Shown: positions 19,634 through 22,425 of the stretch, in pieces
Layout of the letters: the number at the start of each line of letters is the position of its first letter
How positions within the stretch are numbered: the first letter of the stretch is position 1
IMG/VR virus record: IMGVR_UViG_3300026534_000093
Span: 1 to 24,162 of that record
Direction: 5' to 3' (one strand)
From: a virus
Length of the DNA: 24,162 nucleotides
Program-made: the position numbers and the translations under genes
Notes under the pieces: model-generated
Database searches by the model: none
What the model was told of the DNA's origin: nothing
The model's input: the letters and a program-made list of their open reading frames with translations, nothing else

Positions 19634-19785
19634 GGTCCGCGGTCCGCGGGTCCGCACCCCTTGTCGAAAACAGGAAACACCTAGGTTTACAGGGCCTTGA
19701 GCCAATCGCGACCGGGTGCGGACCCAGCGTTTTGGTCCGCACTTCGGGTCCGCAGGTCCGCACCCGGGTCCGCAGTGGGTCCGCA
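19634..19785. repeat. GGTCCGC(A) repeat cluster, eight direct and one inverted copy
   Basis: Direct copies begin at 19634, 19641, 19649, 19734, 19747, 19755, 19767 and 19778, often extended to GGGTCCGCA. One inverted copy, TGCGGACC, is at 19717-19724. Adjacent starts differ by 7, 8, 12 or 11 bp. The cluster lies in the 335-bp intergenic stretch 19543-19877, directly upstream of the ParB-domain methyltransferase. No gene is supported in that stretch. It could be a protein-binding array (partition-like, replication or late-operon control). Confidence 0.7.
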
Positions 19786-19822
19786 CCCCCCGACAGAATC
19801 CGCCTCCCTGCTGGCAACTCGG

Positions 19823-19850
19823 CCCCGCCTTCGCGCGGGGTCGTTTCTTT
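19823..19850 (+). terminator. Terminator-like hairpin before the methyltransferase gene
   Basis: CCCCGC (19823-19828), a 6-nt loop and GCGGGG (19835-19840), followed by TCGTTTCTTT. The T-tract is interrupted, so termination is plausible but not strong. It stands 28 bp before the start at 19878 and could insulate the gene from read-through. Confidence 0.5.
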
Positions 19851-19877
19851 CAAGGGCGGCAAACGCAAGGAACAGAC

Positions 19878-21143
19878 GTGAAGATCAGGATGACGCCCTT
19901 GGGCGAGCTCACCCCCTATGCCGGGAACGCCCGTACCCACACCGATGCCCAGATCGCCCAGATCGCGGCCTCGATCGAGGAATTCGGTTTCACCAACCCG
20001 ATTCTTGCCGGCAGCGACGGGGTGATCATCGCGGGGCACGGAAGGCTGCTGGCAGCCGAGAGGCTCGGCATGGACAAGGTGCCGGTCATCACGCTGGACC
20101 ACCTCGACGAGGCCCAGCGCCGGGCCCTGGTGATCGCCGACAACAAGATCGCCGAGAACGCCGGTTGGAACGAGGAACTGCTGCGCGCCGAGTTGGCGGC
20201 TCTGCAGGAGATGGACTTCGATCTCGACCTGGTGGGATTTTCGGACGAGGAACTCAATGAACTTCTAGGTGAGCTTGAGGAAGAGGAACCCGAGGGCGAC
20301 ATTGCCCCCGTCCCGGTGCCCGATCCCCCAGAAGACCCGGTCACCCGGGTTGGCGATCTCTGGCTGCTCGGCAACCATCGCCTGCTGTGCGGCGACAGCA
20401 CCAACCTGAAGGACGTGGAGCGGCTGATGGGCGGCCAGACCGCCGCGCTGTTTTCCACCGACCCGCCCTATCTGGTCGACTACACCGGCGCCGGTCGACC
20501 GGGCGGTGCCGGGCATGACTGGTCCGACCTCTACCGCGAGGTGGACATCAAGGATGCCGAGGGCTTCCTGCGTGCCGTGTTCCGCAACGCCATCAAGGTC
20601 ACCCGCAAGGATGCCGCCTGGTATTGCTGGCATGCCCACAAGCGCGCCGCCCTGATCGAGGCCGTGTGGACCGATCTGGGTGTCCTGAACCACCAGCAGA
20701 TCGTCTGGGTGAAACCCGCCGCGATCCCGACCCACAGCTACTACCCCTGGCGGCACGAGCCCTGCCTGATGGGCTGGCAGCAGGGCCACAAGCCGCCGCA
20801 CCTGGGCGGGAACGACCACAACGTGACCAGCGTCTGGGAGCTGGACTGGGAAGGCGCGGCCCGGCCGGCGGGCGCCGAGCACCCAACCCAGAAGCCGCTT
20901 GAGGTGTTCGCGATCCCGATGCGCCGGCACACGAAGAAGGGTGAGATCTGCTTCGAGCCGTTCTCGGGCTCAGGCTCGCAGATCGTCGCCGGCGAGGCGC
21001 TGGGCCGGAAGGTCTACGCGATGGAATTGCAGCCCGCCTTCGTGGATGTGGCTATCCGGCGCTGGCAGGAGGCAACGGGCAAGCAGGCGGTGCTGGAGGA
21101 GACCGGCCAGACCTTTGCTGATTTGGCGGACAACCCGCGCTGA
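19878..21143 (+). CDS. ParB-domain DNA methyltransferase (phage type, beta-class)
   Basis: A 421-aa fusion: an N-terminal ParB/Sulfiredoxin-like nuclease-fold domain (about 5-95, with GVIIAGHGRLLAAERLGMDKVPVI), an acidic linker (about 125-155), then a DNA methyltransferase with catalytic DPPY at 195-198 and SAM-binding FSGSGS at about 362-367. Catalytic motif before SAM motif is the beta-class order (N6-adenine or N4-cytosine). Such proteins are common in prophages, where they modify phage DNA against host restriction. The start is taken as GTG 19878 with AAGGA upstream; ATG 19890 is the alternative. Codons further upstream are repeat DNA. Its 3' tip is duplicated at 165-275. Confidence 0.92.
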   Translation: MKIRMTPLGELTPYAGNARTHTDAQIAQIAASIEEFGFTNPILAGSDGVIIAGHGRLLAAERLGMDKVPVITLDHLDEAQRRALVIADNKIAENAGWNEELLRAELAALQEMDFDLDLVGFSDEELNELLGELEEEEPEGDIAPVPVPDPPEDPVTRVGDLWLLGNHRLLCGDSTNLKDVERLMGGQTAALFSTDPPYLVDYTGAGRPGGAGHDWSDLYREVDIKDAEGFLRAVFRNAIKVTRKDAAWYCWHAHKRAALIEAVWTDLGVLNHQQIVWVKPAAIPTHSYYPWRHEPCLMGWQQGHKPPHLGGNDHNVTSVWELDWEGAARPAGAEHPTQKPLEVFAIPMRRHTKKGEICFEPFSGSGSQIVAGEALGRKVYAMELQPAFVDVAIRRWQEATGKQAVLEETGQTFADLADNPR

Positions 21144-21575
21144 GGCGATGGATGGCGTGGCTGTATCTTCCCCCGGCTTGCTTGTCGGAGGCGACCAACT
21201 GTTCGGCCTGTCGCTCTGCTCCGGCGCAGGCGGGCTGGAACTCGGGTTGCACATCGCCTGCCCCCAATACCGAACTGTATGTCATGTCGAACGGGACGCT
21301 TATGCCGCGGCCGTCCTCGTGGCGCGGATGGAAGACAAGGCCCTGGCGCAAGCTCCTGTCTGGGACGATGTTGCCACATTCGACGGCCGCCCGTGGCGTG
21401 GATCGGTGGACATCGTCACTGCGGGCTACCCGTGCCAGCCGTTCAGCGTCGCGGGCAAGCGCAAGGGCGCAAACGATCCCCGCCACCTCTGGCCCCATGT
21501 CGCCCGCATCATCGGAGAATGCACCCCGCCCTTCGTCTTCCTCGAGAATGTCGCCCATCATCTCCGCCTCGGCTT
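21033..21575 (+). repeat. 543-bp direct repeat, intact-gene copy (partner at 165-707)
   Basis: Spans the end of the ParB-type methyltransferase and the first 428 bp of the C5 methyltransferase gene. It aligns to 165-707 without any gap (constant offset 20868), at roughly 90% identity by eye. Differences are mainly third-position, as expected for homologous coding genes diverging under selection. Confidence 0.85.
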
Positions 21576-22167
21576 TCCCGAGGTCGCCGGAAGCCTGGTC
21601 CGCATGGGCTACAGACTTGCGGCGGGCCTGTTCACGGCGGCGGAAGTCGGCGCGCCCCACAAGCGCGAACGGCTGTTCGTCCTTGCCCAACGGGCGGGAG
21701 ACACGATGGCCGACCCCGCGCGCCTGCTCTGGCAAGAGATCGAGTGGCGGCAACCGGACGGAACTCCTGCGCCGCTGGCCGACGCCGATGGCAACCGACG
21801 GCAACAAGCCCAGCGCGGGCAACCGCAAGGCGGCCGACCTGACCCACGCCAGCCGCCTGTGGCCGACCCCGTCGGCGCGCGATGCCAAGGGCGCCAACAG
21901 CCGGGAACATGTGGAGAAAAATGGCACGGGCCGGCGGCACATGGATCAGCTGGCGAACTTCACCGTGCATTCCCCCCTGGCCCCGGCGACCTTGAGGCAT
22001 GGCGAGACTACCTCCGCCACGCCCCGCACGCTGAACCCAGCCTTCGTCGAGGCGCTTATGGGCTGGCCAACCGCGTGGACCGCCTTCGGCTCTGTGGCAA
22101 CGGCGTGGTCCCCCTGGTTGCGGCGCATGCGGTTCGAGTTCTGGCGGCTGAACTGTGCGACGGATGA
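21148..22167 (+). CDS. C5 cytosine DNA methyltransferase
   Basis: A 339-aa enzyme transferring methyl from SAM to cytosine C5. Motif I is FGLSLCSGAGGLELG (19-33), catalytic PCQ is 95-97 (C96 nucleophile), ENV is 133-135, motif VIII (HKRERLFVLA) is 171-180 and motif X (NRVDRLRLCGNGVVPLVAAHA) is about 308-328. The segment 185-280 is low-complexity with repeated 'ADP/ADAD' and little TRD-like structure; it overlaps a second coding frame. ATG 21148 lies 4 bp after the ParB-methyltransferase stop, so both belong to one operon. Orphan status (no matching nuclease) suggests self-protection. Confidence 0.93.
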   Translation: MDGVAVSSPGLLVGGDQLFGLSLCSGAGGLELGLHIACPQYRTVCHVERDAYAAAVLVARMEDKALAQAPVWDDVATFDGRPWRGSVDIVTAGYPCQPFSVAGKRKGANDPRHLWPHVARIIGECTPPFVFLENVAHHLRLGFPEVAGSLVRMGYRLAAGLFTAAEVGAPHKRERLFVLAQRAGDTMADPARLLWQEIEWRQPDGTPAPLADADGNRRQQAQRGQPQGGRPDPRQPPVADPVGARCQGRQQPGTCGEKWHGPAAHGSAGELHRAFPPGPGDLEAWRDYLRHAPHAEPSLRRGAYGLANRVDRLRLCGNGVVPLVAAHAVRVLAAELCDG

Positions 22168-22180
22168 GGGGGAGGAATGA
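21788..22180 (+). CDS. Overlapping-frame protein with 'WPTP...LNPAFVEALMGWP' signature
   Basis: In the +1 frame of the C5 methyltransferase gene, 21788-22180 encodes 130 aa with features known from phage methyltransferase C-termini and small companion proteins: LWPTPSARDAKGAN, HMDQLANF, then RTLNPAFVEALMGWPTAWTAF. Earlier in-frame WPTP copies (near 21708 and 21778) show that the frame is meaningful before the chosen ATG. Its stop overlaps the next gene's ATG (ATGA at 22177), a coupling signature the methyltransferase stop at 22167 lacks. It may be a separate protein initiated at 21788 or the end of a frameshifted methyltransferase. The ATG has no strong ribosome site, so the exact start is uncertain. 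Confidence 0.5.
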   Translation: MATDGNKPSAGNRKAADLTHASRLWPTPSARDAKGANSREHVEKNGTGRRHMDQLANFTVHSPLAPATLRHGETTSATPRTLNPAFVEALMGWPTAWTAFGSVATAWSPWLRRMRFEFWRLNCATDEGEE

Positions 22181-22425
22181 AGCAAAGCCGGACCATGTCG
22201 CTGATCGAGGCGATTACAAACGTCGTGGTTGGCTATGGCCTGGCGGTTCTGACCCAGGTTCTGACCTTCCCGGCCTTCGGCCTGCACGCGACGCTGAACC
22301 AGAACCTGCAATTGGCCGCCCTGTTCTCGGTCATCTCGGTGTTTCGCTCCTTTGTGCTGCGAAGGGCCTTCGAGGCGGCACGTGTGCGCGCGACACGGCC
22401 CACAACGAACAACGCCGCCCGGTAG
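22177..22425 (+). CDS. Small two-helix membrane protein (DUF7220-like)
   Basis: An 82-aa phage protein with two hydrophobic helices: about 9-32 (IEAITNVVVGYGLAVLTQVLTF) and about 44-62 (LQLAALFSVISVFRSFVL), then a basic, cytoplasmic-looking tail (RRAFEAARVRATRP). I recognise the pattern 'MSLIEA.TNV.VGY..A...Q...FP.FGL' from prophage proteins placed right after methyltransferase genes; function unknown, holin-like behaviour unproven. The ATGA overlap is with the +1-frame ORF and not with the C5 methyltransferase. Confidence 0.82.
   Translation: MKQSRTMSLIEAITNVVVGYGLAVLTQVLTFPAFGLHATLNQNLQLAALFSVISVFRSFVLRRAFEAARVRATRPTTNNAAR

Follow-up and report, generated by a model that had tools for sequence, protein, structure and literature searches.

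Overlapping reading frames that probably encode two polypeptides of a single phage C5-cytosine methyltransferase

Introduction

Can a phage C5-cytosine DNA methyltransferase gene encode a second protein in another frame, and what would that protein be? The question is raised by a 24,162-base virus record, called the window in what follows. An earlier note on this DNA saw two conserved coding frames overlapping at the end of the methyltransferase gene (21700–22180) and read them as either a true overlapping gene or a programmed frameshift giving two alternative C-termini. To our knowledge, same-strand overlapping genes of such length and wide conservation are unusual in double-stranded DNA phages.

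We call the frame 1 polypeptide alpha and the +1-frame polypeptide beta. Judged from patterns in the sequence, both frames almost certainly code, and the locus very probably specifies one C5-cytosine methyltransferase made as two polypeptides in overlapping frames. The two frames appear to hold complementary parts of one enzyme, which goes beyond the earlier reading of an overlap at the gene end only.

Layout of the locus

The locus has a G+C content of about 67%. Its alpha and beta frames are nearly coextensive because their ATG codons interleave, and beta reads open from the ATG at 21152 to the TGA at 22178–22180. The features are:

21142–21145, plus strand: GAGG, a possible Shine-Dalgarno sequence read from the letters, 2 nt 5′ of the alpha ATG and 6 nt 5′ of the beta ATG
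21148–21154, plus strand: interleaved start codons ATGGATG (alpha ATG at 21148, beta ATG at 21152)
21148–22167, plus strand: alpha, putative large polypeptide of a C5-cytosine methyltransferase, frame 1, 339 aa, motifs I–VIII and X
21152–22180, plus strand: beta, +1-frame polypeptide, 342 aa, WPTP region and motif-IX-like end
21211–21678, plus strand: alpha motifs I (SLCSGAGG) to VIII (KRERLF), with motif IV PCQ at 21424 and motif VI ENV at 21538
21707–21871, plus strand: three beta WPTP motifs (21707–21718, 21776–21787 and 21860–21871), each over TGGCCGAC
22031–22081, plus strand: beta LNPAFVEALMGWPTAWT, motif-IX-like by hhalign against the M.HhaI C-terminus and by its invariant residues
22096–22113, plus strand: alpha motif X GNGVVP, by sequence reading and substitution constraint
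22177–22425, plus strand: next gene, a DUF7220 protein (PF23858, 3e-30), whose ATG overlaps the beta stop (ATGA, 22177–22180)

Motif X in frame 1, the three WPTP motifs followed by LNPAFVEALMGWPTAWT in the +1 frame, and the ATGA overlap with the next gene had all been described in the earlier note and are all present. The repeated DNA word that it remarked on, TGGCCGAC, lies exactly beneath the three WPTPs (at 21707, 21776 and 21860). The window has six copies of it where 1.5 are expected, a number not reached in any of 100 shuffles.

Alpha matches PF00145 (5e-32) and has the features of a C5-cytosine DNA methyltransferase, including the catalytic motifs PCQ (IV) and ENV (VI) and the AdoMet-binding fold; its residues 21–332 match phrog_363 (1e-60). 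An AF2 model of alpha is confident in the catalytic core and motif X helix, with the middle disordered, and Foldseek matches its fold to M.HaeIII and M.HhaI (E 5e-14). Residues 79–311 of beta match a different family, phrog_1008 (‘DNA methyltransferase’ in PHROGs; 8e-20), which other betas match at 1e-33 to 3e-27. The alpha and beta families are present in PHROGs as two separate entries.

Relatives with the same layout

In a first collection, made with either frame, 80 loci came from prokaryote genomes and 158 from viral contigs. Beta lies at +1 relative to alpha in 231 of the 235 loci that allowed placement of both frames. A scan with the beta profile only added further contigs at 30–45% beta identity, nearly all with motifs I–VIII and X in one frame and beta at +1 over the same DNA. 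The arrangement is kept across hundreds of phage and prophage sequences. Named examples are Acinetobacter phage ABMM1, Synechococcus phages Ssp-JY39 and Sc-Yong805-2, Acidovorax phage Alfacinha1, Paenibacillus phages, Xanthomonas phage PhiXhv-18 and coliphage N15. A Paenibacillus polymyxa plasmid also has the layout, its beta being interrupted and partly repeated.

Four loci (L234, L235, L238 and L310), with WPTP in frame with the N-terminal part or with motif X displaced, were considered as in-frame ancestors. They were rejected, because in each a single indel seems to have displaced both frames at once.

Stop codon avoidance

Stops expected in each frame were estimated by shuffling synonymous codons within each gene. 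The window's clade gave 149 usable genes of 154 non-redundant ones, chosen for a long alpha and a placed beta. A separate clade around locus L241 gave 63 usable genes of 66; the 79 genes of this clade have a median G+C of 0.52.

Between the beta ATG and the WPTP part, the beta frame has 3 stops in the window's clade (175.7 expected) and 1 in the L241 clade (171.6 expected). Within the beta-constrained part, it is the alpha frame that stays open, with no stops in either clade (321.2 and 237.8 expected). The third frame, serving as control, shows no depletion: 953 stops against 769 expected in the window's clade, and 541 against 486 in the L241 clade. These tallies are not independent counts, since clade members are related and the first clade was selected; stop avoidance does agree in two clades and in many distant loci. 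The earlier note had held that an overlapping gene would be contradicted by stop codons in the +1 frame of homologues. None falls inside the beta match in any of the 235 loci, and upstream of it the two clades together have 4 where about 347 are expected.

Long chance frames are common in DNA of about 67% G+C, and the +1 frame might be such an accident, with frame 1 alone real. We consider this extremely unlikely: the pattern persists near 50% G+C (the L241 and L303 clades, a Paenibacillus phage and N15), and stops fall far below the synonymous-shuffle expectation while the control frame is undepleted.

Substitution constraint in the two frames

Each substitution was classed as silent (s) or non-silent (n) in alpha (A) and in beta (B), and rates are given per 1000 opportunities. 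In the window's clade, constraint changes frame along the gene as follows.

Codons 1–8. AsBn is 3.0, AnBs 26 and AsBs 260. The first residues of beta (M.WLYLPP) are therefore constrained, AsBn being so far below AsBs.

Codons 9–186. AsBn is 41–85 and AnBs 3–16, so that alpha is constrained and beta hardly.

Codons 187–248, the WPTP part. AsBn is 5–7 and AnBs 77–84, so that beta is constrained and alpha hardly.

Codons 249–290. Constraint is intermediate.

Codons 291–316, around motif IX. Both frames are constrained, at 26 and 16 against an AsBs of 67.

Codons 317–336, motif X. Alpha is again constrained (AsBn 67, AnBs 13).

The switch of constraint between frames is repeated in the L241 and L303 clades, making three clades in all. 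Stops in both frames are far rarer than chance would give, and both frames evolve under protein-coding selection, their constraints being complementary. Constraint confined to frame 1 had been named in the earlier note as a second result that would speak against an overlapping gene, and codons 187–248 are much more constrained in the +1 frame. The low constraint on the beta residues beneath alpha codons 9–186 is odd for a stretch translated only within beta, and speaks against the split-enzyme reading developed below.

Some silent sites of alpha are also conserved. The third base of codon 157 (21616–21618) is T in 154 of 154 relatives, and the His codons 137–138 (21556–21561) are CAT in most relatives; this may reflect local constraint on beta.

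Start codons of beta

The alpha and beta starts lie at most 8 nt apart in 116 of 139 non-redundant loci, most commonly as ATGNATG or with the beta ATG just 5′ of an alpha GTG or TTG; a few of these 116 close pairs lie within the gene, by chance. With ATG as the sole start codon considered, beta begins at +4 in 123 of 154 genes of the window's clade and in 64 of 66 of the L241 clade. A second class, made up of the L303 clade with the Paenibacillus phages, has an internal beta start at about alpha codon 54–61, preceded in most members of the L303 clade by the Shine-Dalgarno sequence AAGGAG. An internal TTG at 21617, found in 140 of 154 relatives, was dropped as a candidate beta start, since the open frame and the N-terminal constraint of beta both extend from the interleaved ATG.

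These starts bear on programmed frameshifting, by which a +1 shift near codon 187, possibly with a −1 shift near codon 316, would join alpha, the middle of beta and motif X in one chain, or would yield two alternative C-termini. The constrained frame does switch near codons 187 and 316, and the shifted chain would carry all motifs in their usual order. Such a chain would not need alpha to stay open through the beta part, however, where it has 0 stops against 321 expected, and alpha codons 181–186, the site of the first shift, are variable, with no conserved shift site. Beta begins at a conserved start of its own, has a constrained N-terminus and stays open from that start onwards; the L303 clade starts it internally behind a Shine-Dalgarno sequence. 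Conserved interleaved starts together with these internal ones favour separate initiation, and frameshifting is very unlikely.

Of the two options in the earlier note, the frameshift with alternative C-termini is accordingly disfavoured, whereas stop avoidance, frame-switched substitutions and conserved beta starts lend strong support to a true overlapping gene. The coding overlap at the end of the gene stands, but its extent has to be revised: beta coding apparently begins at the ATG at 21152 and covers nearly all of the gene.

A methyltransferase probably divided between two frames

No motif IX is recognisable in a motif reading of the alpha sequence. The beta profile aligns, weakly, to motif IX of M.HhaI (RKLHPRECARVMGYPDSY; hhalign E 0.013, in a single comparison with M.HhaI letters entered by hand), and alpha gave no alignment to this motif in the same kind of comparison. 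The motif-IX-like end of beta lies directly before motif X, where motif IX belongs, and its L, N, L, M and W are invariant in 22 diverse betas.

Two-polypeptide C5 methyltransferases are known. One is M.EcoHK31I; Lee et al. are said to have described in 1995 that its smaller gene is nested within the larger one in another frame. In this enzyme, which recognises YGGCCR, the larger polypeptide has motifs I–VIII and X and the predicted recognition domain, and the smaller has motif IX (PMC3404938). The present locus resembles it in having two polypeptides, here predicted from sequence, in overlapping frames, and in that alpha, like the larger polypeptide, has motifs I–VIII and X and lacks IX. The likeness is one of motif layout. 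There are differences too: in our locus the starts interleave and the two frames cover almost the same DNA, and the variable WPTP region belongs by constraint to beta, whereas the predicted recognition domain of M.EcoHK31I is in its larger subunit. M.AquI (CYCGRG) is likewise spread over two chains by a linear split, with motifs I–VIII in one and IX and X in the other (PMC3404938); it differs from our locus, where motif X remains with motifs I–VIII.

A split methyltransferase is the best reading because alpha is without motif IX, the beta profile aligns there, if weakly, and M.EcoHK31I divides its motifs alike. The weakness of that alignment and the placing of the predicted recognition domain in the larger M.EcoHK31I subunit count against it. 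Beta could instead be a real overlapping gene for an independent protein, such as a regulator or anti-restriction factor. It has no Pfam match and no match to a solved structure (the beta profile, run against PDB sequences, hit only haemoglobins, by chance), and an AF2 model of alpha residues 1–186 fused to beta gave the beta part no confident fold, although the underlying alignment mixed unrelated fragments, which may partly explain the poor beta model. But alpha and beta are constrained in complementary stretches, the end of beta, just before motif X, aligns with the motif that alpha lacks, and beta over alpha recurs in very distant phages. We consider an independent beta very improbable.

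In the split methyltransferase, ribosomes would initiate at either of the interleaved ATG codons. Alpha would supply the AdoMet-binding catalytic domain (motifs I–VIII) and the motif X helix, joined by a hardly constrained and probably disordered segment. Beta would contribute motif IX and the WPTP region, which is probably responsible for target recognition; the stretch ahead of the WPTP region would have to stay open and be otherwise little constrained. The two chains would assemble into a single enzyme, as in M.EcoHK31I. Separate initiation at the interleaved starts, formation of a heterodimer and the role of beta as recognition subunit are what we infer for this scheme. The fusion model not being confident in its beta part, the basis for the suggested recognition role is constraint.

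Annotation of related loci

Annotation often retains one frame of the pair only. The alpha frame alone is annotated in N15, Xenia and ABMM1; in N15, gene 58 (L427:912–1907) is called a methyltransferase, and the unannotated +1 frame has W.TP motifs and LNPHHSRWLMGLP. The beta frame alone is annotated in Ssp-JY39 (L242), Alfacinha1 (L243) and Komagataeibacter phage phiKX1 (L244), where an alpha with catalytic motifs goes unannotated. Where gene callers retain a single frame at a locus, the partner stays hidden, and in these several GenBank phages beta was kept and alpha lost.

A second CDS nested in the methyltransferase gene is already present in the deposited records of PhiXhv-18 and of the Paenibacillus larvae phages Bloom and Diva, labelled ‘DNA cytosine methyltransferase’ or ‘DNA methyltransferase’ twice, or ‘g49 internal gene’. 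The beta start in these three is internal, unlike the interleaved starts of the window. The genome paper (PMC6070908), in the passages searched, contains no discussion of the nested gene. Among open-licence papers, a search found none dealing with overlapping frames in phage C5 methyltransferases, and none that presents this layout as general.

We see an even chance that these loci form a large and ancient class of phage C5 methyltransferase, with two nearly coextensive genes, interleaved starts and each frame free where the other is constrained. Many proteins annotated as ‘methyltransferases’ in one frame or the other would then be half enzymes, with beta as the specificity subunit. If so, many seemingly complete phage methyltransferases would be half enzymes, and either frame cloned alone would fail. 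The reciprocal constraint also offers a clean and testable case of the coexistence of two overlapping genes.

Other features of the window

The gene immediately 5′ of the locus (19716–21143) encodes a DNA methyltransferase of the N6/N4 type whose N-terminus has a weak ParB-like match, so that two different methyltransferases adjoin, the C5 locus beginning at 21148. On the minus strand at about 1030–1080, a stretch (GGATTTGAACCTACGACC...) looks by eye like part of a tRNA gene; ARAGORN reported no tRNA there, and the stretch may be what is left of one at an attachment site. Part of the locus is present a second time at 170–723. This partial copy is preceded by the end of the upstream gene, has alpha residues 1–148 at 280–723 (89% identical) and then breaks into unrelated sequence; a remnant, a second element and an assembly join are all conceivable origins.
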